Assembly (NCBI RefSeq): GCF_000828635.1
Contig: NZ_AP012547.1
Coordinates: 1-64,000, forward strand
DNA length: 64,000 nucleotides
Direction: 5' to 3'
From: Sulfuritalea hydrogenivorans sk43H
GTDB taxonomy: Bacteria; Pseudomonadota; Gammaproteobacteria; Burkholderiales; Rhodocyclaceae
Each line of letters starts with the position of its first letter. The first letter of the stretch is position 1. Position numbers and translations under genes: made by a program. A model generated the notes under the pieces. It was not told the origin of the DNA. It did not search any database and was given only the letters and a program-made list of their open reading frames with translations. This document shows, piece after piece, positions 11,871-28,095 of this stretch.

Positions 11871-12035
11871 GATGTGCCGGAGTAGTTCCGGTTTCCCCGG
11901 TTCGGGTGTAGTTGCCGGCTTGGCTTAAGGGCAGCCACGTGTACGCGCTGGCCGCCGGAACTTTGGGCTCCATGAACGGCGGCCAATCCAGCGGCTATGG
12001 CAGAATGGGTGTAAATGGGTGTAGTATTGGTGCCC

Positions 12036-13085
12036 ATGATCCGCTCCGACGCCATCCAGATAACTCCCGAGATCCTGAGCCTCATCGCCGGCATCGATGA
12101 ATTCAAGGGTGCTTGGCGCGCGCTCGGCACCCTCGCGCCGGACCGGCTTTCCGCATTGCTCCGCGTCGCCACCATCGAGAGCATCGGCTCGTCCACCCGC
12201 ATCGAGGGCAGCCGGCTGTCGGACCGTGAAGTCGAGCGCTTGCTGTCCAAGCTGCAGATCAAGTCCTTCGCCACCCGCGACGAACAGGAAGTGGCGGGCT
12301 ACGCCGAGGTCATGGAGCTGATCTTCTCGTCCTGGCAGGACATCGCGCTGACCGAGAACCACATCAAGCAACTGCACCGTGATCTGCTGACCTGGAGCGA
12401 GAAAGACGCCAGGCATCGAGGCAACTACAAGACCTCCACCAACAGCGTGGTCGCCTTCGACGAGAACGGCAAACAGTTGGGCGTGGTGTTCGAAACCGCC
12501 ACGCCCTTCGACACGCCGCGCCTGATGACCGAGCTGGTCGCGTGGTTCAACGGCGAGCGCGCCGCCGCGCGGCTCCACCCGCTGCTGCTCATCGGCATCT
12601 GGGTCGTGGTGTTTCTGGAGATCCACCCCTTTCAGGACGGCAATGGCCGTCTGAGCCGGGTGCTGACCACGCTGCTGTTGCTGCAGGCCGGCTACGCCTA
12701 TGTGCCCTACAGCTCGCTCGAAAGCGTGATCGAGCAGAGCAAGGAAGCCTACTACCTCGCGCTGCGGCAGACGCAAGGGACGATCCGGACCGAATCTCCG
12801 GACTGGCAGCCATGGCTGGTCTTTTTCCTGCGTGCGCTGGCCGAGCAAGTTCGACGCCTGAATCGCAAGGTGGAGCGCGAAAAGATCGTGCTGGCCGCAT
12901 TGCCTGAACTCTCGCTGCAGATCGTCGAGTTCGCGAGGGAACATGGGCGCGTGACGATGGGGGATGCGATGCGGCTGACCGGCGGCAATCGCAACACGCT
13001 CAAGCAACACTTCCGGGCTTTGGTGGAGCAAGGCCACCTCAGCCAGCACGGCGCCGGTCGGGGCGCCTGGTACGGGTTGCGATAG
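12036..13085 (+). CDS. Fic-domain protein (AMPylation-type, class II)
   Basis: Fic enzymes transfer AMP or other nucleotides onto target-protein hydroxyls. The 349-residue protein has the full Fic motif HPFQDGNGRLSR with catalytic His197. It also has an N-terminal inhibitory motif (Ser53 with Glu57-Gly58 in SSTRIEG), which makes it a self-inhibited class II Fic. A C-terminal helix-turn-helix-like segment (MGDAMRLTGGNRNTLKQHF) suggests DNA binding, as in many chromosomal Fic-wHTH proteins. ATG 12036 is preferred; the frame is open to 12015. The gene stands alone between the AbiE and HEPN/MNT pairs. Just upstream, at 12005-12022, ATGGGTGTA occurs twice in tandem. Confidence 0.9.
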   Translation: MIRSDAIQITPEILSLIAGIDEFKGAWRALGTLAPDRLSALLRVATIESIGSSTRIEGSRLSDREVERLLSKLQIKSFATRDEQEVAGYAEVMELIFSSWQDIALTENHIKQLHRDLLTWSEKDARHRGNYKTSTNSVVAFDENGKQLGVVFETATPFDTPRLMTELVAWFNGERAAARLHPLLLIGIWVVVFLEIHPFQDGNGRLSRVLTTLLLLQAGYAYVPYSSLESVIEQSKEAYYLALRQTQGTIRTESPDWQPWLVFFLRALAEQVRRLNRKVEREKIVLAALPELSLQIVEFAREHGRVTMGDAMRLTGGNRNTLKQHFRALVEQGHLSQHGAGRGAWYGLR

Positions 13086-13164: not shown

Positions 13165-13584
13165 TCAAAGGGAAGGCAGCGACTCCAGTCGTTCCGCCAC
13201 CTTGCGGCAGGCGGCAATCAGGTCGGCGACCAGACGCTCATCGACATTGAAATCGCCTTCGTACTCGCCCAGGTTGCGCACGTCGTGGCATTTCGCCAAT
13301 ACACGCCAGACTTCCGGGCCGAGCCCAAGCGTATGCGGCAGCAATTGAAAAACAATGTAGCGGTTGGTCGAACGATAGCCGTGGCGACGCAAGGCAGCGA
13401 GGCAAAGCGCATGGGCAGCGTTGTAAGCCAGATCGAATCGGCCCTCGAGCGACAGCCCCGCGAACTCCGCGTCCTTCAGCCTGACCAGACCGAAGCGGCA
13501 CAGACCGGCGAACTCCTTTGCGTCCGGCGGTTCCGCCTTCAGCGGCTTGCCGAAGCCGGTCAGGTTCTCAAATGGCGAGGTCAT
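13165..13584 (-). CDS. HEPN-domain protein (toxin half of an HEPN/MNT pair)
   Basis: A 139-residue all-helical protein encoded directly after an MNT nucleotidyltransferase, overlapping it by 17 bases. HEPN proteins in such pairs are RNases that the MNT partner silences by adding AMP to a tyrosine. Here the signature region reads CHDVRNLGEYEGDF. Arg and a following Tyr are present, but the His of the usual RX4HXY motif is not visible at the expected place. The protein may be a variant RNase or have lost activity. The pairing and order are the strongest evidence for the call. Confidence 0.7.
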   Translation of the reverse strand: MTSPFENLTGFGKPLKAEPPDAKEFAGLCRFGLVRLKDAEFAGLSLEGRFDLAYNAAHALCLAALRRHGYRSTNRYIVFQLLPHTLGLGPEVWRVLAKCHDVRNLGEYEGDFNVDERLVADLIAACRKVAERLESLPSL

Positions 13585-14179
13585 CGTCGCCGCCGATCAG
13601 CCAGAGCTTGGGTTGCGCCAGCACCCGTGTGACGAAAGCGCTGTCGCCGGCCACGCGCTTAGCCAGTTCCTTGCGGGTCATCAGGGTCGGATTCACCGGG
13701 CGGCCGAGCCGGGCGCCGACATCCTCCAGCACCGCGAAGACATCGGCGTAGCCCAGCGTGTCGCTGATCAGCATCAGGTCGATGTCGCTTGCCGCCGTGT
13801 CCTGTCGCTTCGCCACCGATCCATAGACGAAGGCCGCAGCGATCTTCTTCGCCAGCGGCGCCAGCGCCTCGCGCAGGGGCTCGGCCAGACCAACCGTCTT
13901 CTGCGCAATGCCGCACAGTTCGGCATAGATCGGCGAATCCGGGTTGGCCCGGTAGTGCTTCTGGTTGCCCAGCGGATGCATCGTCACCAGCCCGCTCTGG
14001 GCCAGCCGCGCCAGCTCGCGCTGAACCGCGCCCGAGCCGGCACCGGTGAGCCCGATCAGCTCCGTGGCGTAGAAACTGCGCTCCGGCTGGCCGAAGATCA
14101 GGCCCAGCACCCGCTGCTGCGTGCCCGAAAACAGGGCATCGGCGAGGCTGGTCTGTGTGGAAGGCGCTTTGTTGTTCAT
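13568..14179 (-). CDS. MNT nucleotidyltransferase with N-terminal winged helix (antitoxin)
   Basis: A 203-residue protein with two parts. An N-terminal winged-helix DNA-binding domain (about residues 12-75, including YATELIGLTGAGSGAVQREL) precedes a minimal nucleotidyltransferase domain with GSVAKRQDTAASDIDLML, the GS and paired Asp residues of the MNT family. It should AMPylate and neutralise the HEPN partner, and the winged helix probably represses the operon. I chose ATG 14179; ATG 14185 is also in frame. No Shine-Dalgarno site precedes either. A promoter with two palindromes lies immediately upstream and would give a nearly leaderless message. Confidence 0.82.
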   Translation of the reverse strand: MNNKAPSTQTSLADALFSGTQQRVLGLIFGQPERSFYATELIGLTGAGSGAVQRELARLAQSGLVTMHPLGNQKHYRANPDSPIYAELCGIAQKTVGLAEPLREALAPLAKKIAAAFVYGSVAKRQDTAASDIDLMLISDTLGYADVFAVLEDVGARLGRPVNPTLMTRKELAKRVAGDSAFVTRVLAQPKLWLIGGDDDLAI

Positions 14180-14221
14180 GCCCATTTTGGGAATATTAAT
14201 GCCCAGAATGGGCATAGTCAA
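14178..14221 (-). promoter_or_regulatory. HEPN/MNT promoter with operator filling the -35/-10 spacer
   Basis: On the minus strand, -35 TTGACT (14221-14216) and -10 TAATAT (14198-14193) are exactly 17 bases apart. The whole spacer is the perfect inverted repeat ATGCCCA-n3-TGGGCAT (14215-14199). A second, near-perfect copy lies at 14178-14194, centred 21 bases away (two helical turns), over the transcript start and start codon. This is a textbook layout for autorepression, most likely by the winged-helix MNT protein. Confidence 0.7.
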
Positions 14222-14801: not shown

Positions 14802-17800
14802 TCAAGAGTCTCTGTGCAGCAGACTATAAAAAGGTGTGCCCTTAAGAACCTCCCCCAAGACATCAAACGTCTTGAATAAGCACTCGTGTACCGCGAGCGA
14901 CTTTACGCGTTCCGCCAATGGACTCGTTTCACCGCTTAGCCCCAGAGCTCCAAGTTCTTGCGGCGTAACGTTCGGCACTTTGTGGATGAACCAGGTCAAT
15001 AGCGGCTCCCTGTAGTCCGTGGCACCAGCCTTGAAGTGCTTCAGGTACTGTGATGCTAATATCACGCCCACGCCGAACTCCCGTCCTTGTAGCAAGACCT
15101 TGCGCAATACGTCGAATTCGTATCGCATGATGTTGTCTGCTTCGTCGACCAGCAAGAAGGAATCGATGACCCTCAATTGTGGACTGGCCCCGATATAAGG
15201 CCGCTTTGGTATGCGCAACATGTGTTCATAGAACATGTTCAACATGATGGCCACTAGCATGTTTTTGGACTTGTCATCCTGCCCTAGGGCATCCAGCGAG
15301 ATGATTACTATGCCATCCAAGAATTTGTCAAAGCCATCCCCGGCAATGGGTTCACGTGAAAATATTTCCATGTCGACCAAGTCGTCGATGATTGAAAGCG
15401 GCGCATCCGACTTGTTGCCTAATAGGACTTGGTAATTCGAGTGAACGTCATAAATTGTCGGCTGCCGACCAAGTAACTTGCAGTTCTCATATGCTTCGCG
15501 TACGGCTCGCTTGAGCTGTTGCCGCTGCACTGGGCCAATTCCTGTGTAGATCTTGTCCAATACGTCCGAAAAGAACTTGAACCTGTCCAGCCATGGCGTC
15601 ATGGACTCGCCCGCCCCTGCCACATCAAATAGGTTCAATGGCAGGTGATGCGGTTTCACCACCTTCGCCCCAACCGCTTTTACGAAATCCTCGGAGCTAT
15701 AGTCCTTCTTGTAGTCAAAGATCAATACCCTTGGCGTCACGCCTTGGTTGTCTTTTCCACTCTTTGCGATCTGGTAGACCAACGACTTCAGCAATTGGGT
15801 CTTGCCTGTCCCCAGATCCCCAACTACGCCGACGTTCAATTGGTTCAGCCTCGTATCACTGAGGTTGACGCGTCGAGTTTCGGGACGGAAGCCATCCACT
15901 GTTTCACCTATCAACACCTCAATACCGGAGCTCGCCTTGCCTGGGTGGCTAACACCCTCTGGGCTTTCTGGGCCTGTAGCCTGTGGCGGTGTCGTTGTTG
16001 ATGGAGTGCCCTCGGGTTCTGTTGGTTCGGAAACCCCATCAGGCTCCGGAAGTTCTTCGCCGCTGTCTGTGGCCGACGGACTTTCCTGCTTGCTCGCAGC
16101 GTCCACGTTATCAGGCGTGGGCGCCGACTTTGGCGGGGGAATTTCGGCTGCGCCAGCAGCCTTCAGGGCGGCCGGGAACATTCCCCAATCACCCAGTCCT
16201 GCCCCTATCGCCGCATAGATGGACGGAGTGTCGTCCTTGACCACCGACGCCGCGTCACTATGGCCAAGGACGATGGTCTCCTTGAATCCGTCGCCATCCG
16301 TATCACGGGGGCCACTCGAAGTTGATCCGTCGATGACGATTAGTCGACCATGCTTGTCAATTTCCAGGGCCGTTTCATCCGAAAGGATCGCCTCCACTAC
16401 GCGGGCATGGTAGCCAGACCATTTGGACCCCTGTTTTGCAACGTGCGACTGTTGGCTGTAGACCCTAAAGCCAAAACCGATCATGGATGTGAGCAGGTGT
16501 TGGAAGGCTAGCTTCCACATCGATAGGTCCGGATCCAGTGCCCGCTTCCTAAGCTCCCCAAATAGGTCAGACAGTGACTTTGACTGGCCTAGTGCGTCTT
16601 GGCACGCCGCGACCGGCATTGGCCCGTTCGCGCTGCGATACTTGACCTCAACCGCAGTCAACTTCATGGAAACTCGGGATTCAGACAAACGTATGCCAAC
16701 GACGATAAGGTCTGGCCGCTGGTTTGATTCCTTCCCAACGGCATGGGTCAAGTCGTCCAAATATCCCTTGAATGGGTCAATCGGAATGACAAGGAGGAGC
16801 TGCGTCTCCAAATCCGACTCAACCAAGGTCGGCAGCAAACCCTGGCCCGCCATCTGGTTTATCCGAAACTCGTCCTGCAAGACGCGCGAAGCCACGAACA
16901 AGCCCAAGTCTCCGCTCGCCCCAGAATGCCCACTGGAAAGGCCCCGCACCGTCGGAATGCCCCGGCGTGCGACTTCAAGGATCGCCTCGTCCAACCTCGA
17001 GTCACTGATCTCCTCGCAGCCTGGGAGGCGGCATAGCACTAACCTAAGGGTTTCGCGATCCAGGTCCTTGATCCCAGACAGCAGGTAATAGCCGTTGCTA
17101 TCACCGGCACGACTGGAATAGGAAGGTAGGTCATAGTCCCACAGGTATGTACCCTCCAGCCATCCGCCAAGGAAGCAGGCAGGATCAATCGCTGACGAGG
17201 AAACTGCAGCGTAGTCAGCGTTGGCTTCCGTCAATACTTTTTTGATCGCATTGACGCTTGGGGCGAACGTATAACCGATCTTCGAGGGTCCAACGTTCTC
17301 TAGCCTAACGATGGCAGCCATCGTCTTGTCCGCTAGCCCATCCCCGCTTGGCGGCGTGGCGTATCCAGTGCGCGATTCACTGAGGAAGGCGCCAGAGCCG
17401 GCCTTGAGTTGTTGGCGAACGCGATATCGGATCAGGCCACCAAACCCAATTGGTGAGCCAACCTTGGTGCTATCGCATCCCTCACTGGATGTCTCAAGCT
17501 GGGCAATTATCCCTAGGTCTGGGCGAATTCCCGAGTCTCCAGTCCCATACCACCTCACGGAATTACCGGTGTCCTCAGCAAGGTTGGAGATTTCGGCGTC
17601 ATCTGGCCGTGCCGAATCGTCCCGTCCGTCCAGGATTTGGATGTGCCTTGGGCCAAGCGACCTTAGCTGCATCGCTGGCTCATCGGAAGCACCAAATGCC
17701 TTGCGACACCATGAAACCAAGCCCTCGTTGCAAGCGCTATTCTGCCCCGCCGCGCTAGTCACAAGGACATTCAGTACCGGTTTTGCTACAAGCATGGCTG

Positions 17801-20342
17801 ATACGTCACCTAGGGCACGGTGGACTTGAGACACGCTAAAACCACTTGCAACGCCCCCAACGAGGATCCCTAGTTCGCGATCAAACGGCGCCCTGCCCGC
17901 AAGCCTGGGCAACCGGTCAAGGCGCTCTGAGTTCCACAATACGGACCAGTAGTCGGAACTACATTCCACCGAAAGGAACGGTCGTCCCTTGATGTCACCC
18001 GACGCGGTGATGAGGGGAAGGACTATCGAATCGGGGACTGCATCAGGATCCAAAATGCTTGCGGCCGGGCAAGGAAGCTTCCTGGCAGCTTGGAACAAGG
18101 TACGCTGGGCCAAGCAATGCCATGCGAGCCTGATTGGGTGTAGTGGCGAAACCAAGATCGCATAGGGCTCAGGTACCAAGGTCGCGCCATCCGACTCGAA
18201 CTCGGTCAAGATCGATAGGTCAATCCAAGCTGCAACGCTTGGTTCCGCCTCCAGCCATTCGAGGTACGAACGAACGTAACCCTCAACCGTTTCGGCGAAC
18301 CCGGCATCGTTTGCAAGCCATTCCCCAAGCTTTGCGGCCTCAACCAGTCCGTTGCCGTCCTTCCCTCGAACTCGCGCCGCCAAGTCTTGCCGACACTCAA
18401 GGAACTGTGCGGGCGGCTGGAAGGCGCTGGGCTCTGGCCTCGGGTCATGTAGGAACGCCCCCTTGGAAAGGATTGTGTCCTGTTGTGAACCCCAGTCACG
18501 GGCCCTCCAATCACTTGCGTAATCCGCCGCCAATGCCAACGGATAGAACGAATGGGCAATCTGGTCTTGGTCAAGCATCCAGCCCTCAAGATCCGTGCAA
18601 CGTAGGTGCCGATTGACATGCACGTCCGTTGTCGCCCTCCGATGCCGGTTCATACGTATGAGGCGCTCAAACTCACTTCCGCAATGGTCAGGGGTGGAAT
18701 CCTCACAGGTAAGGTAAATGCGGACCGTGGCCTCCGGCTCGCCATCACGCTGTATTACTATGTCGTAAAAGCAATCAGCAGTCGCATCAACTTCAAAACC
18801 GTACGTTGTCTCCGAGGCCTTCGCTATTGGAGACGTCCTTTCCTCGGCAACCCCGCCACTCTCATCACTACCACTGGCGGTGTCGCCAACCGAGACGCCC
18901 AACCCCACATATACGTCAAGGTAGTGGCGGCCTTGGCCATTTAATGTCAGTGAGGTCTCATACGTGACCTTGGTCTTCTTGTCGCGGGAAGCCTTGGGGG
19001 CAGCAATCTTTGATGCCGTCCTCGAATAAACGATGAACCCTGGCTTCCAGGTGCTTAGCGAAATAACCCGGACGCTACCTTTCTTGAACCCCACCGCTTC
19101 GGCAGAATATCGAAGCTGGCTGCCATGCACGGGTAGCACGTCGTCGACAAGTCTACTGGCGCCAGAAACTGCCAATCGCCAATCCCGCTTGTTGGCAACT
19201 GCTCCTTCCCGAACTACGCTAACGTCTACCGGCGCCTCGCGTGCTTCTGGAAGGGAAACTTCAAGCTCCACGTCCGAGAGAACTACGGCGTTAATTCCCC
19301 GCGCAACTGGAATGATCGAATTCACACACTCGATCTTGATTGCTCCCCGAGGTCGATCAGACGTGTCTTCGAGTAACCGTTTCCACTTTTCGACGGTTAG
19401 GTAGGACCACCAATGTGGGGGCTCCCCAATTTCGTCACCCTGGAACGGAGCATAGAAATATTGGGGGGCGCGGGGAAAGGCAGTTGGGCGATCACACTTT
19501 TGGACAAGGTGGTCGCGGACCACATTAAGCGGTGGCAGGTCATCGGGCTCTGCATTTGCGCAAATGCGCTCAAAGCCGCCCGTGAAACCTGCGTCCTCCA
19601 TGTCACCAGCGAGGTCGCCGAGGACCCCAATTTGTTCACCCGCATCGACAAAGCCATCGTCCATGGGGGGGAATCCACAAGCCAAGCTCAGTGACGTCCC
19701 AAATGGGACGCTAGGGTCCGATATGGACCATATCCGGGACAAGACGGCCCACGCGCCTCGCCGGTCGACGCTGTGGCGGTGGGCCTCGTCCGCACCCTTG
19801 GCAGACTCCTCAACGAGGCGATGGGCATCATGCCTCTGCTCCGCTGAAGTCCACGGATGTCGATCAAGTGCGTCGTCGATCAGTTTCTGGATGAACTGGT
19901 CGTTTAGCCAATCCGAGATCGTTGCCGTTGCGGAATTGCTTGCCGCCGCAAGCCCAAACTCATCGCTCGCCGACGACAAGGACAAGCTAACCTGCCGTCC
20001 CCCTGGGGCAAGCAACGCAACAAAGCTTGGGCTCTGGGAATTCCGTACGGATAGCAAGTGGCTCGGCTCACATTGGCCAGACGCGCCAACAGCCGGGTTG
20101 TGCTGGCCTGGCGGCAACTGATCGAGTTGAAGCAACACGGGCAGGAGCATCAGCTGCCCATTTGGTAGGGCAACTTCAATTCCGCCCTCGTCCGCCAGAA
20201 GCTGCAATACCTCAAGCATCAGGTCATGTGGCGGGCCATGGAAAACGGTGCGGAACTCGGCTGTCGCTCCTTGCAGGTCCGCCACTTGGTTCCGAACACG
20301 ATCCCTGATCCGACTAGCAAGCTCCTGGGCTATTCGCTTCAC
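14802..20342 (-). CDS. Giant HerA/FtsK-type ATPase, DptH-like
   Basis: An 1846-residue protein, last gene of a four-gene coupled cassette. The C-terminal third is a HerA/FtsK/VirB4-like motor ATPase: Walker A GDLGTGKTQ (Lys1514), FDYKKDY soon after, Walker B FLLVDEADN (Asp1733-Glu1734) and a sensor ILASQ near 1760. Residues about 1397-1469 are a Pro/Ser/Glu-rich linker. Before it lies a possible PD-(D/E)XK nuclease core, RPDLIVV (Asp1211) then AVEVKYR (Glu1232, Lys1234). The first 1200 residues I do not recognise. Size, order and ATPase type resemble DptH/DndH of phosphorothioate-dependent restriction, but no dnd modification genes are here. It overlaps the upstream gene by 4 bases (ATGA). 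Codon use is less GC-rich than neighbours. Confidence 0.6.
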   Translation of the reverse strand: MKRIAQELASRIRDRVRNQVADLQGATAEFRTVFHGPPHDLMLEVLQLLADEGGIEVALPNGQLMLLPVLLQLDQLPPGQHNPAVGASGQCEPSHLLSVRNSQSPSFVALLAPGGRQVSLSLSSASDEFGLAAASNSATATISDWLNDQFIQKLIDDALDRHPWTSAEQRHDAHRLVEESAKGADEAHRHSVDRRGAWAVLSRIWSISDPSVPFGTSLSLACGFPPMDDGFVDAGEQIGVLGDLAGDMEDAGFTGGFERICANAEPDDLPPLNVVRDHLVQKCDRPTAFPRAPQYFYAPFQGDEIGEPPHWWSYLTVEKWKRLLEDTSDRPRGAIKIECVNSIIPVARGINAVVLSDVELEVSLPEAREAPVDVSVVREGAVANKRDWRLAVSGASRLVDDVLPVHGSQLRYSAEAVGFKKGSVRVISLSTWKPGFIVYSRTASKIAAPKASRDKKTKVTYETSLTLNGQGRHYLDVYVGLGVSVGDTASGSDESGGVAEERTSPIAKASETTYGFEVDATADCFYDIVIQRDGEPEATVRIYLTCEDSTPDHCGSEFERLIRMNRHRRATTDVHVNRHLRCTDLEGWMLDQDQIAHSFYPLALAADYASDWRARDWGSQQDTILSKGAFLHDPRPEPSAFQPPAQFLECRQDLAARVRGKDGNGLVEAAKLGEWLANDAGFAETVEGYVRSYLEWLEAEPSVAAWIDLSILTEFESDGATLVPEPYAILVSPLHPIRLAWHCLAQRTLFQAARKLPCPAASILDPDAVPDSIVLPLITASGDIKGRPFLSVECSSDYWSVLWNSERLDRLPRLAGRAPFDRELGILVGGVASGFSVSQVHRALGDVSAMLVAKPVLNVLVTSAAGQNSACNEGLVSWCRKAFGASDEPAMQLRSLGPRHIQILDGRDDSARPDDAEISNLAEDTGNSVRWYGTGDSGIRPDLGIIAQLETSSEGCDSTKVGSPIGFGGLIRYRVRQQLKAGSGAFLSESRTGYATPPSGDGLADKTMAAIVRLENVGPSKIGYTFAPSVNAIKKVLTEANADYAAVSSSAIDPACFLGGWLEGTYLWDYDLPSYSSRAGDSNGYYLLSGIKDLDRETLRLVLCRLPGCEEISDSRLDEAILEVARRGIPTVRGLSSGHSGASGDLGLFVASRVLQDEFRINQMAGQGLLPTLVESDLETQLLLVIPIDPFKGYLDDLTHAVGKESNQRPDLIVVGIRLSESRVSMKLTAVEVKYRSANGPMPVAACQDALGQSKSLSDLFGELRKRALDPDLSMWKLAFQHLLTSMIGFGFRVYSQQSHVAKQGSKWSGYHARVVEAILSDETALEIDKHGRLIVIDGSTSSGPRDTDGDGFKETIVLGHSDAASVVKDDTPSIYAAIGAGLGDWGMFPAALKAAGAAEIPPPKSAPTPDNVDAASKQESPSATDSGEELPEPDGVSEPTEPEGTPSTTTPPQATGPESPEGVSHPGKASSGIEVLIGETVDGFRPETRRVNLSDTRLNQLNVGVVGDLGTGKTQLLKSLVYQIAKSGKDNQGVTPRVLIFDYKKDYSSEDFVKAVGAKVVKPHHLPLNLFDVAGAGESMTPWLDRFKFFSDVLDKIYTGIGPVQRQQLKRAVREAYENCKLLGRQPTIYDVHSNYQVLLGNKSDAPLSIIDDLVDMEIFSREPIAGDGFDKFLDGIVIISLDALGQDDKSKNMLVAIMLNMFYEHMLRIPKRPYIGASPQLRVIDSFLLVDEADNIMRYEFDVLRKVLLQGREFGVGVILASQYLKHFKAGATDYREPLLTWFIHKVPNVTPQELGALGLSGETSPLAERVKSLAVHECLFKTFDVLGEVLKGTPFYSLLHRDS

Positions 20343-21856
20343 AGGCTTGCTCCGAGCCTTGCAGCAGAACTGAAGGGGGGAATCATCAACATTCCGGATT
20401 CCGCGTCTGGGCTGTCCAATACGAGCCCCAACATTCGAAGCTTCCGGCCAAGGTCACTTCCGCTCATGTTGTCTAGGTCGACTTGTATGCCATACCATTC
20501 GAGGTGGTCGCTAAGCCTTTGGACCGACCGTGGTCCGGCTGCCTCGCGAAGGCAGCAATGGACCATGGCCAACAAAGCGACTGGGCCAAGCGAGACAACC
20601 CATGGTGCATTTCGGGCTTCGCCCCGCTTCCGCAGGAAATAGCTTTGGTCGTACCCGCGAAGGCTCTCGTCAGACGTCTGGCGCTGCCCAAGCGTGTGAC
20701 GAGCGAATTCGATGAGGTTTGATCCGATTCCCTTCTTGCATGCGATTGCCCTTGCCTCCCTGTCGGTGACCTCGGTATGGATCGCCAACACTTTGGCCTC
20801 GAGTAGGGGCCCACGATTCAGCTCAATCGTTGCCAAGAGCGCCAACAAGTCAGCAGACGAGCTGAGCCGCCTCGTGGAAGTACCGAGTTCCTCCAATGCC
20901 CACAAGACGACGTTCAGGCCAACGCGCGCGGTCAAGTAGCCGGACGCATACTCCTTGACGATGGGGACCGCTGGGTTTCCATAGGCTAGGCACCGTGCAT
21001 CTCCATTTAGGATCTTCCGCCGGACCTCTTCCTCGCTCGCTGGCGCAGGCTGCCCACCGAGTATGTCCCGGACGGTGCGCCACAACTTTTCATTAACGTT
21101 GCACAGCCAGACTACATGCATGACCGAGCCAAGCCGAATGACTGCCTCTAGCAAGCTGACCCATTGCCGCCTTGTCATGCTCCCCTTCGCGTCCATCGTT
21201 GCCTCTAGGTCACGTACGAACTGCCGCGCGGGATACCTAAGGAAATCCTTGTCTGTCTCTGGTAGGCTTGCAGCAAGGTCGATTGGGTTTGCTACCCACT
21301 TGCGCGCATTCTTTCCACGGCGCTGGAACTCCTCCTGAAGCCAGCGCGCCCATACGTCATCCCCCGCGGTGACCGACAGGGCATCAAACAACTTACCCCA
21401 CGTTGCCTTGGCAGCGGCGTCGGATTCGCTTCCAAGGCAAATCATCCTTTGTATCAACTGGCCAGGATTCCAAGAGTTCCCTGCCAGGCGCGCCGACCCA
21501 GAGTAGAGGGCGACGTCAGGGACAACGGGGCAAAGCTGGAGGAATCGCTTTGACGATTGGTTCGGCTGCTTTGGGCTTTCGAGTACCCCATGGAGGACTG
21601 TCCTCCATGTATCCGGCCTGATCCTTCCTGGCTCAAATTTCTTGGTCTTCGCCGCCTGGCCAAGGCGATCGAACTCCCGCCCGGCCTTCGGAACCTCCGT
21701 CTCTGGATATCCGCCAAACCCGACCGCGCGATATAGCGAAGCCACGACGACCTCCGCTGTCGAAAACTCTGGCGCGGGACGGATGTTGAATGCGGACGAA
21801 TCGTACGCAGCATGGGATGACTTCCATGGACTATCGCGCAGTTGTTGCATGGTCAT
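20339..21856 (-). CDS. Unknown cassette protein in the DptG position
   Basis: A 505-residue protein with no signal peptide, membrane segment or NTP-binding motif that I can see. It lies between the two ATPase genes and overlaps both by 4 bases (ATGA), so the three should be made in fixed ratio. By position and size it matches DptG/DndG, but I cannot confirm homology from sequence alone. Recognisable conserved-looking segments include RKRGEARNAPWVVSLGPVA near the C-terminus and LQLCPVVPDVALYSGSARL near residue 108. The second ATG, six bases in (MQQLRDS), is an alternative start. Confidence 0.4.
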   Translation of the reverse strand: MTMQQLRDSPWKSSHAAYDSSAFNIRPAPEFSTAEVVVASLYRAVGFGGYPETEVPKAGREFDRLGQAAKTKKFEPGRIRPDTWRTVLHGVLESPKQPNQSSKRFLQLCPVVPDVALYSGSARLAGNSWNPGQLIQRMICLGSESDAAAKATWGKLFDALSVTAGDDVWARWLQEEFQRRGKNARKWVANPIDLAASLPETDKDFLRYPARQFVRDLEATMDAKGSMTRRQWVSLLEAVIRLGSVMHVVWLCNVNEKLWRTVRDILGGQPAPASEEEVRRKILNGDARCLAYGNPAVPIVKEYASGYLTARVGLNVVLWALEELGTSTRRLSSSADLLALLATIELNRGPLLEAKVLAIHTEVTDREARAIACKKGIGSNLIEFARHTLGQRQTSDESLRGYDQSYFLRKRGEARNAPWVVSLGPVALLAMVHCCLREAAGPRSVQRLSDHLEWYGIQVDLDNMSGSDLGRKLRMLGLVLDSPDAESGMLMIPPFSSAARLGASL

Positions 21857-23955
21857 CGCTCATCCTCCCAGCGAACGAGGAATGCAGCGAGTTCCCTTAC
21901 GATGACGTCGTCACGCAGCCCAATCCGAATCTCGCCTTCCTCAAGCAATTCCTCGTCCCGAACGATTTGCCCGGAAAGCCGGGCCCTCGTCGTATCCAAC
22001 ATTGCTACAACTGGGCGTGGAAGGGAAGATGTAGTCATCCCACGCCGCAAGTTCCGGACGGACTTGAAGAGCTCATAGGTAAGTGGGATCGACTGTGTGC
22101 CAGCTCCTGAACCCACCGTCAGGAAGCGAATTGCGGAATGTGGCCGATCCCCATTGGGGATATCGCGTGCCTTCACCTTCTGCCGAGGAGTTGTCAATAT
22201 TGCCCTACGTTGCATCGGCGGGAGCGGCTCCCCAAAGGTCGTATTGAGGGTTACGACGAATCGGTCCTTTTCGTTGAGGAGCCCCTCGACTTGCTTGACT
22301 GCATCATGCAACAACTGGGGATCGCCGCCTAAGACCCTTTCGAATTCACGAAGGATCTCGGCATCCCTCACTGCTGCCGAGCGCAAGCCAATGGAACGCC
22401 GGACCATGCGACATGCAAAGTCCCTTACCAAGGACTGGACCCTAGAGGCGACCATGGGCCTACGCTTCACGATGTCGGGATCAGACAATTTTTCATCAGC
22501 TTCCACGAGCCTGCGCAACAAATCAGCCTCAAGGACAGTGAGGCATCGATATTTTCGGATATAGGAAAACCCCTCACCAACCGATTGGCTGAATCGAGTA
22601 TCGATTTCCCGGAGACGGATCTTGGTGTTGGAACTTACATCCACCTCCATGTCGGGATCCGCAATGGCTGGGTCTAAGAGTTCTCCCAAGGCCGCGAGCT
22701 GGGCGTCAAGCGTCGCCGGGACCGATATAGCTGACCCTCGATTGAGGAAGTGGTAGAGCCCCATTAGCGTCGGATGGCTATCTAACTGGAGCTCCTTAAG
22801 GTCCGCCCTCAAACTACGTAGGCCAGTGTGTGGCCACCGACCAAACAGGGAATGCTGGTATTGCGAAGCAACCAAGATGAAGGGAACGCTCAATCGCAAT
22901 GAATCAGGCTTTCCGGAAGCTGATTTCCCAAGCTCAACCAATCGCGCGGCCCTAGAACACGGGTCCTCTGCTTTTTTTGCTTCGGAGGCTGGTACGCCTG
23001 CGAGCAAATATGAGGTTAAGGAAAATAGGTCACGAAAGCTCCAGCGCTTGCCACTCGCGAGTTCATACCATCGCAAGACCCGAAGTAGTGACGACCTATA
23101 GGGATCAGAGGAAAGGAGTGATCGGCTCAGACAAAACGGACACCTATCCCCGGCCGCACATGCGCCCTCCTTCGGCCAAAGGGATGGATTCGTAGCCGCT
23201 GACAACACCTGCATTGCTGGCGAGCCTGATCCACCGTGGACTGGGCTGCCACCCAATAGGGTTTCAACATCCATCGGCCAAACCCCAAAGGCTGGATAGC
23301 CGTCAAGCGGCCAACACCCCGGAGTATCTAGGCCGACGCCAACTGACTGAACGATTGCTTCGAGGACCATTCGCACCTCGTCCTGCCCGCCATCAGTTGC
23401 GGCGATCAAGGCATCGTCCAAAATACCTCGGTTAATGCAGGCCAAGTAGACTTGGTTTGGGTCGCCGAAAAGTAGCTTCCGCAAATCCCCAATGAGCAGG
23501 TCCGCCGGGGCCTTCTCAAGTGCATCATCCCTAACGGAGGCGTCCTGGACAATGGCCAGATGGTAGGGATGCCGGCCATTCGAAAGGCTGGTGATGTCGC
23601 CTACCGCGTGGCGCGGGGTACTGCCGTCCTCGCGGAGGAACTGGGACTTTAGTGCGTCGACTAACGCCCCTGAAAGTCCGAGGTCAGCATCTAGGTTCTT
23701 GATTGTGAATTCAATTGCTTCGGTCTTTCCGTTGCCCGGTCCACCAACCAATAAGATGATGCGGGGAGTTCCCTCCAAGCCAGAAGCTATGGCCTTGCAC
23801 CATCCGCCGAGGCGGGCCAATAGCGGCGTAAAGACAACGTCGCCGGTCGGCCTACCGCCAGCCGAATGGAATAGGCGACGGACCCCTCCCGATTTGTGTC
23901 CCGCCCAATCCAACAAACCAGCGGGCAGGGATGGGGTTTCGGGAGTGGCATCCAT
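21853..23955 (-). CDS. P-loop ATPase, DptF-like
   Basis: A 700-residue protein with Walker A GGPGNGKTEAI at residues 71-81, preceded by the hydrophobic strand RIILLV. A Cys-rich segment CAAGDRCPFC near residue 265 could bind zinc. It starts 2 bases after the methyltransferase stop (TGACGATG) and overlaps the next gene by 4 bases. In DndFGH/DptFGH cassettes an ATPase of this type comes first, and the position fits. I infer that it is the F-like component of a modification-guided restriction complex. An upstream in-frame start at 23967 would overlap the methyltransferase gene and is less likely. Confidence 0.55.
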   Translation of the reverse strand: MDATPETPSLPAGLLDWAGHKSGGVRRLFHSAGGRPTGDVVFTPLLARLGGWCKAIASGLEGTPRIILLVGGPGNGKTEAIEFTIKNLDADLGLSGALVDALKSQFLREDGSTPRHAVGDITSLSNGRHPYHLAIVQDASVRDDALEKAPADLLIGDLRKLLFGDPNQVYLACINRGILDDALIAATDGGQDEVRMVLEAIVQSVGVGLDTPGCWPLDGYPAFGVWPMDVETLLGGSPVHGGSGSPAMQVLSAATNPSLWPKEGACAAGDRCPFCLSRSLLSSDPYRSSLLRVLRWYELASGKRWSFRDLFSLTSYLLAGVPASEAKKAEDPCSRAARLVELGKSASGKPDSLRLSVPFILVASQYQHSLFGRWPHTGLRSLRADLKELQLDSHPTLMGLYHFLNRGSAISVPATLDAQLAALGELLDPAIADPDMEVDVSSNTKIRLREIDTRFSQSVGEGFSYIRKYRCLTVLEADLLRRLVEADEKLSDPDIVKRRPMVASRVQSLVRDFACRMVRRSIGLRSAAVRDAEILREFERVLGGDPQLLHDAVKQVEGLLNEKDRFVVTLNTTFGEPLPPMQRRAILTTPRQKVKARDIPNGDRPHSAIRFLTVGSGAGTQSIPLTYELFKSVRNLRRGMTTSSLPRPVVAMLDTTRARLSGQIVRDEELLEEGEIRIGLRDDVIVRELAAFLVRWEDER

Positions 23956-23957
23956 CG

Positions 23958-25319
23958 TCAGGCACAAAAGGCAGGCAAAGTGGTCTTCGCCCTATCCTTT
24001 GAACGAACGTTCGATAAGGTGTTGGGCCGTACATCCAGTTCCGTCGTTACCTTGGCAAGGGTCTGCAGTATGGCCTGCCCCACAGCTCGGGCAAGGAGCG
24101 GAGGTACGGCATTTCCTACCTGTGTATAGCGCGGGCAATCCTTCTTTCGCCGCTCCCCGCCGGTTGTGTATTTGCCATGGAAGCGAAACCAATCAGGGAA
24201 TGATTGCAACCGAGCAGACTCGCGGACGCTGAGGATCCTTGGCTCGCTGTAGTGCAACACGTCATCTGGCAGGGTCGTAATGGTTGGCGCTGGTTTACTT
24301 GGCGACATTGGGACGGTGCGATGCTTTAGCATCCCTAGGCGTTCTCGGTCCGCATCACTCACAGATACACCCTTTCGACACTCGCGCAATATCGCCTCGA
24401 ATTTTTCGACGACCAAATCCCGATGGCGAGCTAGTCGTAGGCTGTCCATGGCATCCTTGGTCACTCCCTGGTTTGCCCAACGCTGGTATCTGGTAGTCGG
24501 CCCAATATAGTTCGGAATCGAAAAGCCTTTCCTAGAGCATGGATCCGCGCATTCGAGCAATGGCCTCCCGCGAATCTCTAGGTCGGATATCGCATCTTGT
24601 GCGGATAATTTTTCTGGGAAACCGAACTCATCCCTCTGCCTTAAGCCACAAGCACGGATGGATTCGATAACGCTCGAAACTCCTCCGTCCAGCCTGTTTG
24701 CTAGGGTTCGTTGCAATCCAACTACCACCAGCCTCGACCTCTGTTGTGGAACGCTATAGTCTGCCGCGTTAACGATCCACCCCTCAGCGACGTAGCCAAT
24801 GCTGTCAAGGGCCTCGACCAACTTTTGGTAGTACGATTTTGGTTTTGGGCCGGGCCGTATGCCCTGTCCGCGCTTGGTGGCACCATGTGCAATCTGCATG
24901 CCATTTACGTTTTCTAAGACGACTATCTTAGGCTGTACGTCGGACACGAACTGGACATACTGCTCAAACAGTCGATTCCTTGGGTCATTCTTGTTTCGCC
25001 GCCCAGCGAACGAAAAACCTTGGCAGGGTGGTCCTCCTGCTACTACGTCGATGGAGCCCCGCAACCGTCTAATGTCAGCCTCATGGTTTCTTAGGACATC
25101 TTCAATGGAATGGGCGCGCCTCTCCAACCATTTTGGCCAATCAAAGCGAATTGAGGTGCGGCCATTTAAGAAGTTTGCTTCAAAAGTCTTGAATGCATCG
25201 TCAGCCTTTTCGATCGCAAAGACGCCTTGCCATCCTGCCAAGGCCATTCCAAGTGAGAGTCCGCCACAACCAGAAAACAGGTCAATGAACGTCGGACTGG
25301 GAGTTCCATTTACTTGCAC
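23958..25319 (-). CDS. DNA (cytosine-5-)-methyltransferase
   Basis: A 453-residue C5-cytosine methyltransferase. Motif I is FIDLFSGCGGLSLGM (residues 11-25), motif IV is GGPPCQGFSF with catalytic Cys99, motif VI is VLENVNGM, motif VIII is PQQRSRLVVVG, and motif X is QVGNAVPPLLARAVGQAI at the C-terminus. A target-recognition region of usual size lies between VIII and IX. It heads the four-gene minus-strand cassette and is divergent from the Vsr-like gene. In the cassette it probably marks self DNA. The recognition sequence cannot be read from the protein. Codon use is less GC-biased than in the flanking core genes, suggesting transfer. Confidence 0.93.
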   Translation of the reverse strand: MQVNGTPSPTFIDLFSGCGGLSLGMALAGWQGVFAIEKADDAFKTFEANFLNGRTSIRFDWPKWLERRAHSIEDVLRNHEADIRRLRGSIDVVAGGPPCQGFSFAGRRNKNDPRNRLFEQYVQFVSDVQPKIVVLENVNGMQIAHGATKRGQGIRPGPKPKSYYQKLVEALDSIGYVAEGWIVNAADYSVPQQRSRLVVVGLQRTLANRLDGGVSSVIESIRACGLRQRDEFGFPEKLSAQDAISDLEIRGRPLLECADPCSRKGFSIPNYIGPTTRYQRWANQGVTKDAMDSLRLARHRDLVVEKFEAILRECRKGVSVSDADRERLGMLKHRTVPMSPSKPAPTITTLPDDVLHYSEPRILSVRESARLQSFPDWFRFHGKYTTGGERRKKDCPRYTQVGNAVPPLLARAVGQAILQTLAKVTTELDVRPNTLSNVRSKDRAKTTLPAFCA

Positions 25320-25471
25320 TATGTCGTCGCTCCAATCTACTTGTCATTACGCGATGTTCGTCGAATACTACCACCATCGCCTTTAGGCACGATACTAGGC
25401 GATGTGTGGGTACATTTAGGTATCAGAAGCGGTCTTGTGAAAATAATTAGCGTTATCCGACCAAGGTGTTA

Positions 25472-25936
25472 ATGCAATTGAAGGTGAAAAAGTCAAAATC
25501 GAAGCTGGTTGATCCAGCGGTCAGCTACCGAATGTCCCGGATTCGGTCGACGGAAACTGGCATCGAAGTGATCCTACGTCATGCACTGTATGCAACCGGG
25601 TTGAGGTACAGGAAAAATTATCGACATGCTGCTGGGAGACCAGATATCGCATTCGTGGGTATAAAGGTTGCCGTATTTTGTGACAGTTCTTTCTGGCATG
25701 GTCGAGATATGCGTAGCCTTGAAAAGCGCCTACGGACAAATAAGGCGTTCTGGCTAAATAAGATCAATTGCAACATTGCAAGGGACCGCCACGTTGATCA
25801 GGCCCTCAAGGCGGATGGTTGGAAGGTTTTGCGATTTTGGGACGAAGACATAGAACATCGACTGGATAGGTGCGTGAAACGAATTTACAACGAAGTGCAT
25901 AAGCGGAAAGTGCTTCTGCATCCCCAGCCGAGATGA
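25472..25936 (+). CDS. vsr: Vsr-family endonuclease, variant without the zinc site
   Basis: Vsr nicks next to T-G mismatches that arise when 5-methylcytosine deaminates, and vsr genes often accompany cytosine methyltransferases. The 154-residue protein has the N-terminal YRMSRIRSTETGIEVILR, the central GRPDIAFVGIKVAVF and the later WKVLRFWDEDI. The usual HGCFWHxH segment reads CDSSFWHGRD, so a His and the zinc-binding Cys/His residues seen in E. coli Vsr are replaced. It may therefore act as a restriction or repair nuclease with different specificity. ATG 25472 is preferred over an upstream GTG because AAGG lies just before it. It is divergent from the methyltransferase across a short shared promoter region. 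Confidence 0.8.
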   Translation: MQLKVKKSKSKLVDPAVSYRMSRIRSTETGIEVILRHALYATGLRYRKNYRHAAGRPDIAFVGIKVAVFCDSSFWHGRDMRSLEKRLRTNKAFWLNKINCNIARDRHVDQALKADGWKVLRFWDEDIEHRLDRCVKRIYNEVHKRKVLLHPQPR

Positions 25937-26058: not shown

Positions 26059-26784
26059 TCAGGGCAGGTCACTTTCGATCGGTTTCGCGAACCCAACCTG
26101 ATCACCCGCCAGGCTGCCCTTGTGCGCCGCCATCTGGTCGCGCACGGTAATGCGCGAGTGCTTGTATTTCGGGGAACCGAATTCCGCATCGCGCTTTGCC
26201 AGTTTGTCGGTGAGGAGCACCAGCGCCACGCCGGTTCCCTGGCTGGTGGCGGCGGCGGCGAACTCGGCATCGCGCTCCTGGCGCAAGTCGCGCATCCGGG
26301 AAGAAATGCGAGCGGCCATGGCCTTGCGGAAATCCTCCATGTCACTCCGGTTCCATTCGGGATGCTGCCTGTGCGCGGCATTCAGGGCCTCCCAGACACT
26401 GGCTTTGAGGTATCCCACCAGCCACTGGGCAAACAGGGTGTCGGCCCGGTCGCCATAGAAGCCGACGCCATAGCCGAGCGCCGGATCGTAGTGCAGGCGC
26501 ACGATGGTGTCGGTGAAATTGGCGACGCCGGTACTGATGAATTGAAACCACCGCGGGCAACTCTTGGCGGGATTCTTCGGCGGGCCGTAGGCGTGAAAGG
26601 CCTCGGCCCAATCGAAATCGGTCGCCGCCTTGGTGCTGGCGATCTCGGCCTGCTCGATGCCGAATTTCCGCATCAGCGTTTCGGCCTGGGCCAGGGCGCG
26701 CTCGGCTTCGTGGTCATTGCCGCGGCCGTCCATGGCGACGGCCATCAGCTTTTGCGCTTTGCGTATCGCCTGCTCTTTATCCAT
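26059..26784 (-). CDS. DUF2786-type phage-like protein
   Basis: A 241-residue protein. The N-terminal about 45 residues match DUF2786 (AIRKAQKLMAVAMDGRGNDHEAERALAQAETLMRKFGI, shown here only by its start AIRKAQKLMA). A larger domain follows that often accompanies DUF2786 in phage and mobile-element proteins. Function is unknown; a nucleic-acid role is often assumed. ATG 26784 (MDKEQAI) is preferred to the ATG 15 bases upstream. It forms a probable pair with the next upstream gene on the same strand and may be a leftover of an integrated element. Confidence 0.65.
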   Translation of the reverse strand: MDKEQAIRKAQKLMAVAMDGRGNDHEAERALAQAETLMRKFGIEQAEIASTKAATDFDWAEAFHAYGPPKNPAKSCPRWFQFISTGVANFTDTIVRLHYDPALGYGVGFYGDRADTLFAQWLVGYLKASVWEALNAAHRQHPEWNRSDMEDFRKAMAARISSRMRDLRQERDAEFAAAATSQGTGVALVLLTDKLAKRDAEFGSPKYKHSRITVRDQMAAHKGSLAGDQVGFAKPIESDLP

Positions 26785-26831
26785 GGTCCTTCGACGCAAT
26801 GCCGGGCGTGGGCGACATTGCCGCAGGCGCC

Positions 26832-27335
26832 TTATTCAGGCCTGCGAAATCCGGCATCGATCCATGCGCTCGCACTGGCTTTGTTGAGCTTGAATCCGCT
26901 GGCCACGCGGACCCGGGCGAGTTCTTCGCCGGCGGCATCGTGGGCGGCAAGCAAGGCGTGCGGATCATCTTCGTCGGGCACGATGTCGAGCGTGACGCTG
27001 ATTCGCCCGGATGCCGCGTTGATCGTGATGTTCTGGTGGAGCGTGGCGTGAAGCTGCTGCACCTGACGCTGCCGGAATTCGCTGGCCGTCTTGACGAGGG
27101 TGTTGAATGCCAAGGTATCGAGCGGCTTAGGGTTCTTCTTGTCGCGCCCCATGGTCCAAGGGCCGACCAGGGCCGGCTCGGACTCGCCATCCAGGATCAT
27201 CTCGACGGCCCATCCCTCGTCGTCTTCGTTCTTGACCACGCGCGCGGTCCAGCCGTTGTTGCGCCAAAACCTCGCTTCCTGGATCAGATCGGGTTTATCC
27301 GCCTCGATGGCTTCGTTCGTTGTTTTCGTTGTCAT
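26832..27335 (-). CDS. Hypothetical protein, probably of mobile-element origin
   Basis: A 167-residue soluble protein starting MTTKTTNEAIEADKPDLIQ. I do not recognise the family. It is transcribed toward the DUF2786 gene 47 bases downstream, so the two likely share a promoter. The fold looks mixed, with an alpha-rich N-terminal half containing WTARVVKNEDDEGWAVEMIL and a beta-rich second half. Context (defence genes on one side, a toxin-antitoxin pair on the other) suggests an accessory origin. Confidence 0.5.
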   Translation of the reverse strand: MTTKTTNEAIEADKPDLIQEARFWRNNGWTARVVKNEDDEGWAVEMILDGESEPALVGPWTMGRDKKNPKPLDTLAFNTLVKTASEFRQRQVQQLHATLHQNITINAASGRISVTLDIVPDEDDPHALLAAHDAAGEELARVRVASGFKLNKASASAWIDAGFRRPE

Positions 27336-27384
27336 GGGCGCATTTTAGGTCCGGCCATCTGGTGCGGAACCTGGTTGAAAATCC

Positions 27385-27413
27385 TTGTCGCATGGTAACG
27401 TAGGTGTTACCAT
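27385..27413 (+). promoter_or_regulatory. HigBA-like promoter with operator in the spacer
   Basis: A perfect 8-6-8 inverted repeat, ATGGTAAC (27392-27399) and GTTACCAT (27406-27413), lies just before the toxin start. A possible -35 TTGTCG (27385-27390) and -10 TACCAT (27408-27413) are 17 bases apart. The palindrome would then cover spacer and -10, and the transcript would begin at about the GTG start codon. The antitoxin is the likely repressor. Confidence 0.55.
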
Positions 27414-27418
27414 AAGCC

Positions 27419-27772
27419 GTGAAGATCAAGCTCGAAGAATACATCCGGGAAGACGGCGCCAGTCCGTACAAGGCATGGTTTGACGGACTGGATGCACAGG
27501 CTGCTGCCAAGGTAACCGTGGCCAAGACGCGGCTCGAGCTTGGTAATACATCGAACGTGAATTGGTTCCGGGGAATCGGTGAGTACAAAATCGATTGGGG
27601 ATCTGGCTATCGCATCTACCTCGCCAAAGACGGGGAGGCGCTGATTATCCTGTTCGGCGGCAGCACCAAGAAAGCGCAGCAAAAAGCCATCGATCAGGCC
27701 GTGGCACTGCACGATGAATACAAGGCGAGGAAGAAAATTCTCGCCATCGCCAGGAAAGGAAAGAAGTCATGA
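27419..27772 (+). CDS. HigB/RelE-family toxin
   Basis: A 117-residue small basic protein of the HigB-like addiction-module killer family, expected to cleave mRNA on the ribosome. Recognisable parts are YIREDGASPYKAWFDGLD at the N-terminus, GEYKIDWGSGYRIYLAKDG in the middle and LIILFGGSTKKAQQKAIDQA near the end. That is the usual order for this family. The start is GTG at 27419; no Shine-Dalgarno site precedes it. The stop overlaps the antitoxin start by 4 bases (ATGA), and the toxin gene comes first, as in higBA-type pairs. Confidence 0.87.
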   Translation: MKIKLEEYIREDGASPYKAWFDGLDAQAAAKVTVAKTRLELGNTSNVNWFRGIGEYKIDWGSGYRIYLAKDGEALIILFGGSTKKAQQKAIDQAVALHDEYKARKKILAIARKGKKS

Positions 27773-28095
27773 CGCTGACCCGCGATTTCAAACAGACTGT
27801 CGTTGAGCGCGTTGAGCGCGATCCGGACTTCGCCAAGGCGCTTCTCGATGAAGCTGCCACGCTTTTTCTGAGTGGCGAACCTGATGCCGCTCGCCTCATT
27901 CTCCGCGACCTCGTGAATGCGACGGTTGGATTCGAAAATCTTGCCGAACTGACGCACAAACCCAGCAAGAGCCTGCATCGCATGCTGTCGCGAAAGGGCA
28001 ACCCGAGCATGGACAACCTGGCCGCTATCTTTGGCGCAGTCCGGAACTGGCTCAATGTGACGTTCGATGTGCGAGTTGTCGAAACGGCCTCTTGA
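27769..28095 (+). CDS. HigA-like antitoxin with helix-turn-helix
   Basis: A 108-residue antitoxin of the addiction-module antidote family. The middle contains a helix-turn-helix region (FENLAELTHKPSKSLHRMLS, then MDNLAAIFGAV) that should bind the palindrome at 27392-27413. The N-terminal part (FKQTVVERVERDPDFAKALL) resembles the toxin-contacting region of relatives. It overlaps the toxin gene by 4 bases. It ends 18 bases from the convergent amtB gene. Confidence 0.85.
   Translation: MTLTRDFKQTVVERVERDPDFAKALLDEAATLFLSGEPDAARLILRDLVNATVGFENLAELTHKPSKSLHRMLSRKGNPSMDNLAAIFGAVRNWLNVTFDVRVVETAS

Follow-up and report, generated by a model that had tools for sequence, protein, structure and literature searches.

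A predicted C5-cytosine methyltransferase accompanies a DndFGH/SspFGH-like module in Sulfuritalea hydrogenivorans sk43H and related loci

The restriction halves of the phosphorothioate systems, SspFGH of Vibrio and DndFGH (DptFGH), are the closest described relatives of the locus presented here. In the part of PMC8092258 considered here, SspFGH is described as toxic on its own and as damaging DNA that does not carry its sulfur mark, and the same applies to DndFGH. The considered part of PMC10853773 proposes DndFGH as a stand-alone counter-invader machine working without an inbuilt modification module. The cytosine methylases described there, for which it has already been proposed that methylcytosine takes the place of phosphorothioate in a Dnd-derived system, accompany the DndD/CxC-DndE modification core, whereas none is mentioned beside FGH in that part of the paper.

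The window analysed here comprises the first 64,000 nucleotides of the S. hydrogenivorans sk43H contig NZ_AP012547.1. It contains four minus-strand genes and one divergent gene exactly where an earlier sequence-only reading had placed them (Table 1). The genes encoding H and G as well as G and F overlap by 4 bases each. If translation of F starts at the alternative ATG located four codons after the TTG (first base 23955), the protein comprises 700 aa and is separated from the methyltransferase gene by a gap of 2 bases. The distance between the methyltransferase gene and the Vsr-like gene is 146 bases.

Table 1. Predicted genes of the cassette and domains of the H protein (positions in the window).
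Feature	Position	Strand	Remark
H, DndH/SspH-type protein	14802..20342	-	1846 aa
H C-terminal HerA/FtsK ATPase, residues 1464-1841	14820..15953	-	PADLOC, Pfam and 7es4 matches
H PD-(D/E)XK nuclease region, about residues 1200-1340	16323..16745	-	D1211, E1232, K1234
H methyltransferase-like Rossmann domain, about residues 836-1091	17070..17837	-	predicted inactive
G, DndG-type DNA-binding protein (predicted)	20339..21856	-	505 aa
F, P-loop protein of DndF/SspF type	21853..23967	-	704 aa from TTG
C5-cytosine DNA methyltransferase (Dcm-type)	23958..25319	-	453 aa
Vsr-like nuclease gene, variant without zinc-ligand residues	25466..25936	+	divergent from operon

The GC content ranges from 0.485 to 0.589 in all eleven 1-kb steps between 15 and 26 kb and from 0.594 to 0.712 beyond 28 kb, with mixed values (0.514-0.640) in the window's first 7 kb. 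F was found in none of 30 genomes of the same genus, many of which are incomplete. The cassette region looks like an acquired island. Its flanks (window 12015-13085, 13165-14221 and 26059-28095) encode a Fic protein, a nucleotidyltransferase with a small partner and a DUF2786 protein; a small gene pair in the flanks resembles a toxin-antitoxin pair, for which Pfam gave no support.

The H protein provides the clearest link to the Dnd systems. Seven PADLOC DndH models match it with E-values from 8.6e-64 to 1.8e-27, all restricted to the C-terminal ATPase, which also matches the solved DptH ATPase (7es4, E 5.9e-45), and the alignment of the family H profile with canonical DndH (hhalign) reached a probability of 100% over profile positions 1198-1826. 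H was thereby confirmed as the HerA/FtsK-type ATPase related to DptH that had been proposed from the sequence. All 62 family H proteins possess the Walker A motif and the D, E and K residues of the predicted nuclease, and in none of them does the methyltransferase-like domain contain the methyltransferase motif. The middle part of H matches only generic methyltransferase-like folds; neither BpuSI nor another type II enzyme is among the 50 matches listed for it, and Foldseek alone gave no match at E 0.001. H thus appears to share with DndH not only the ATPase but also a REase domain and a catalytically inactive methyltransferase domain.

No PADLOC, NCBIfam or Pfam family matched F or G of the window at a meaningful E-value, F being characterised only by its Walker A motif, which occurs in 70 of 70 family members. 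HMM scans failed to reveal sequence homology of these two proteins to DndF and DndG, and F and H of the window did not match the Ssp models of PADLOC either. TIGR03238 (DptF) gave nothing above its cut-off in 150 genomes. The hhalign comparison of the F and G families with canonical DndF and DndG reached only about 5% probability, weak values although the C-termini are collinear. The predicted structure of G has the DndG fold with three winged-helix domains (7exx), while Foldseek alone gave no match at E 0.001. Among distant family members, F of L077 (E 5e-8) and of L081 (E 4.6e-6) matches SspF models and H of L081 matches SspH models. The relation of all three proteins to DptFGH, as claimed by the sequence-only reading, consequently holds for H by sequence and profile and for G by predicted structure, whereas F is connected only via the SspF matches of distant members. 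The claimed agreement in gene order and protein size with the restriction half of the phosphorothioation systems was upheld, since canonical modules (four F, three G and three H proteins as reference) encode proteins of about 530-800, 440-520 and 1700-1850 aa in the order F-G-H, as in SspFGH of Vibrio (considered part of PMC8092258), where the set begins with a Walker A protein and ends with a large FtsK-type one. Two other F proteins differ at their N-terminus: that of L077 matches a PADLOC HNH model in this part, and that of L019 (12161-14734) carries an extension of about 150 residues, for which neither Pfam nor a PDB sequence search yielded a match, so that an EcoRII-N-like DNA-binding domain was rejected.

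The sequence-only call of a C5-cytosine methyltransferase was confirmed by PF00145 (E 4.7e-54) and TIGR00675 (above cut-off), and the enzyme presumably methylates DNA. The modification genes adjoin the FGH module as in SspABCD-SspFGH, but a C5-methyltransferase replaces SspABCD here. Similarly, the locus differs from DndABCDE-DndFGH in this dedicated enzyme and in the lack of dnd modification genes, which had already been noticed from the sequence. Searching reading frames of at least 90 aa at E 1e-4 with DndB, C, D and E queries from L011 and L015, which recovered L012 and the two source loci, we found no homologue in window 8001-32000 or in any of 65 FGH loci, and DndC is absent from the whole genome.

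These 65 loci were collected with a G alignment from a set holding one genome per species. The two peptide patterns used for locus finding bias the collection to G proteins with those motifs, and near copies (L043/L044, L081/L082) are included, hence not all loci are independent. A C5-methyltransferase adjoins FGH in 61 of the 65 loci; in 54 it directly precedes F on the same strand at a distance of no more than 500 bases, and in seven it occurs only downstream of H. The window and four plasmid loci (Shinella, Rhizobium, Sinorhizobium, Pseudoalteromonas) possess it in five of five cases. Conservation of the order Dcm-F-G-H beyond close strains, which the sequence-only reading had proposed to look for, was thus found, and the combination of C5-methyltransferase and F-G-H extends over Pseudomonadota, Planctomycetota, Verrucomicrobiota and Bacteroidota. 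Because the window methyltransferase has no match at E 0.001 in 60 of 120 genomes from the phylum and a match in the other 60, the presence of a C5-methyltransferase in 61 loci is not due to chance. With regard to the remaining four loci, the contigs of L071 and L075 start within G, and that of L083 ends within H, its visible upstream flank being devoid of a C5-methyltransferase. L067 (Verrucomicrobia) is a true exception, since both flanks are visible.

Several further observations were made in the collected loci. A reverse transcriptase gene and an HNH nuclease gene are found near FGH of L067. The records of Bordetella hinzii and Solimonas variicoloris (L043/L044) have identical methyltransferase regions and nearly equal scores for F, G and H, which suggests a recent transfer or a shared contig source. 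In nine plasmid loci with canonical or DndH-like genes (L010-L018) the methyltransferase profile gave no match. One of them, from a Priestia megaterium plasmid (L018, 1-10014), carries annotated DptFGH immediately 3' of an AlwI-family restriction enzyme gene and no dnd modification genes in this stretch; possibly, it represents another FGH tied to methylation. Two Vibrio plasmids (L014, 7111-10047; L016, 7312-10323) encode proteins of about 980-1000 aa that stand alone, possess a DndH-type ATPase domain and adjoin the conjugation gene mobI, with no F or G annotated nearby. L013 and L017 show a similar ATPase match.

The METHYLTRANSFERASE family tree comprised 64 FGH-linked and 32 unlinked C5-methyltransferases, the latter being 28 from other genomes and four second copies at FGH loci. 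One clade (SH-aLRT 99) unites 62 of the 64 linked enzymes and the four second copies, while the 28 from other genomes, obtained with one query in 120 genomes and placed in a quick tree with long branches, fall outside. Within this sample, the family of the clade occurs only at FGH loci. The PCQ motif is present in 62 of the 64 linked enzymes; the other two sequences are partial. L081/L082, which have the most distant FGH (G 25-26% identical), carry a C5-methyltransferase from outside the clade 10 bases after H, a different enzyme with the same chemistry. The recognition domains of 53 main-group methyltransferases are still alignable, with a mean identity of 36% at a core identity of 45-55%.

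The Vsr-like protein belongs to the Vsr family (TIGR00632, E 1.4e-33; PF03852, E 1.4e-21), so that the original call stands at family level, the window copy being an odd variant. In an alignment with 44 other Vsr sequences, it keeps the GRPD and FWH motifs of repair-type Vsr (G(K/R)PD in general) and lacks the HGC...C residues, which we take to be zinc ligands. HGC[FY]WH is present in 42 of the 44 others, L053 being altered and L058 broken off. A Vsr was detected in 41 of the 65 loci, in 37 of these just after H. The normal form at FGH loci is hence a canonical Vsr just after H, from which the window copy diverges in sequence and place. No Vsr was seen in 24 loci, six of which show less than 500 bases after H, that is in 18 of the 59 loci with at least 500 bases visible there. 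Vsr is only loosely part of the cassette. In L073, an HhH-GPD glycosylase gene (16995-17717) follows straight after H, where other loci carry Vsr, and perhaps encodes an alternative T:G repair enzyme; both proteins may serve the repair of deaminated 5-methylcytosine.

Vsr-fold proteins are nucleases. The methyltransferase and the Vsr-like nuclease could accordingly form a type II restriction-modification pair with FGH acting on its own, and the divergent orientation and missing zinc-ligand residues of the window copy would fit such two separate systems. Considering that Vsr is missing from view in 24 loci while the methyltransferase and FGH mostly stay, that it is canonical elsewhere, and that the glycosylase of L073 fits mismatch repair, this arrangement appears very improbable. 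Based on the Vsr alignment and the Vsr counts at FGH loci, we did not retain the Vsr-like gene as a candidate for the restriction nuclease. Classical type II systems likewise combine a C5-methyltransferase, frequently accompanied by Vsr, with a restriction part, which here, however, consists of three proteins forming an ATPase machine of about 3000 residues instead of being a simple endonuclease. Among the PADLOC matches of F, G and H, no Drm model (DrmA, DrmB and DrmC of DISARM) and no BREX model (PglZ, BrxC) was found at E 1, and the methyltransferase matches DrmMII more weakly than MTase_II. No exact named system was found, in agreement with the distinctness assumed from the sequence.

Trees of 58 loci (without L081/L082; strong splits of 95 or more) revealed one strong-split conflict between F and G, none between G and H and two between F and H, and pairwise identities correlate accordingly (r 0.98 for F-G, 0.99 for F-H). 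Since these trees agree, FGH is inherited as a unit. Between H and the methyltransferase, conflicts affect 22 of 41 strong splits, those of H, and 13 of 28, and the correlation of F with the methyltransferase is 0.54-0.58. A segment of H covarying with the recognition domain of the methyltransferase was looked for and not found. Judging from these conflicts and from the lack of such a segment, the tie between FGH and the methyltransferase appears to be looser than in a classic cognate pair.

Natural exchanges were observed in Pseudomonas. Between L029 and L074/L084, the methyltransferase is 94/89% and Vsr 89/86% identical, FGH only 31-32%. The upstream DNA and the methyltransferase gene of L029 and L074 share 83-88% nucleotide identity up to about 90 bases from the Dcm-F border, no DNA match occurs over F-G-H, and the match resumes about 90 bases before the end of H and covers Vsr (84%). 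L029 and L084 show the same pattern (methyltransferase 89%), with one additional 83-base match within H. In the reverse case, L037 and L040 share 85-86% identity in FGH and 34% in the methyltransferase. FGH therefore moves as a block and its partners change, while a C5-methyltransferase stays, which fits a machine that needs shielding by 5-methylcytosine and weakens the idea of strict one-to-one specificity.

One could alternatively assume that FGH is the stand-alone counter-invader machine argued for DndFGH in the considered part of PMC10853773, with the methyltransferase (and Vsr) as a companion guarding against other restriction systems or stabilising the island and exerting no control over FGH. 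This would agree with L067 and with the independent exchange of the methyltransferase. However, the near-obligate pairing with mostly one family seen only at FGH loci speaks against it, and a neighbour with no bearing on FGH would scarcely be retained through a replacement of FGH between the methyltransferase and Vsr, so that we consider this assumption unlikely. Through this pairing and this replacement, comparison lends good support to the key proposal of the sequence-only reading, 5-methylcytosine as the putative self mark that FGH recognises.

The cassette thus probably acts in a restriction-modification-like manner. The methyltransferase, in line with its enzyme class, would place 5-methylcytosine on host DNA at its motif. 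F, G and H would form one complex of the DndFGH/SspFGH kind in which, according to their families, F would be a nucleotide-binding regulator, G would bind DNA, and H would translocate on DNA by its ATPase and cut or nick it by its PD-ExK nuclease. Blocked on methyl-marked DNA, the complex would damage DNA without the mark; we infer this damage and the blocking by 5-methylcytosine because SspFGH and DndFGH behave in this way with the sulfur mark (considered part of PMC8092258). Vsr, where present, would mend T:G mismatches arising from 5-methylcytosine deamination; its presence as a cost would imply real, dense methylation. The same part of PMC8092258 reports that SspE requires phosphorothioate for its activity. 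Two opposite modes thus occur next to a single mark, and methylation might likewise activate FGH, being used to locate or license the attack. Taking into account that SspFGH and DndFGH are both reported there to attack unmarked DNA and that methylated DNA would be host DNA, such an activation seems very unlikely.

As the considered part of PMC10853773 places methylases with CxC/DndE and mentions none beside FGH, and as no paper on Dcm-FGH was recognised in the open-access literature, the cassette appears to be a variant of the known DndFGH/SspFGH machine which, so far as found, has not been described under an exact name.

The finding suggests that ordinary DNA methylation can replace sulfur as the 'self' mark, in which case FGH machines could have a methyl base instead of phosphorothioate as their mark. 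We lean slightly towards the broader view that FGH modules are mark-agnostic engines, of which a third widespread lineage reads 5-methylcytosine, with lineages swapping between the same methyltransferase and Vsr and one methyl mark shielding from machines that are 31% identical. To our knowledge, it is unsettled how FGH machines distinguish marked from unmarked DNA, and sulfur marks are incomplete and cannot easily be set at chosen positions. If the proposed function is true, a 5-methylcytosine-gated cousin would allow this question to be posed with simple methyltransferases and site-defined substrates. One FGH lineage would gain the modification partner said to be missing for FGH in the considered part of PMC10853773, and FGH would represent a restriction engine open to reuse with different marks.
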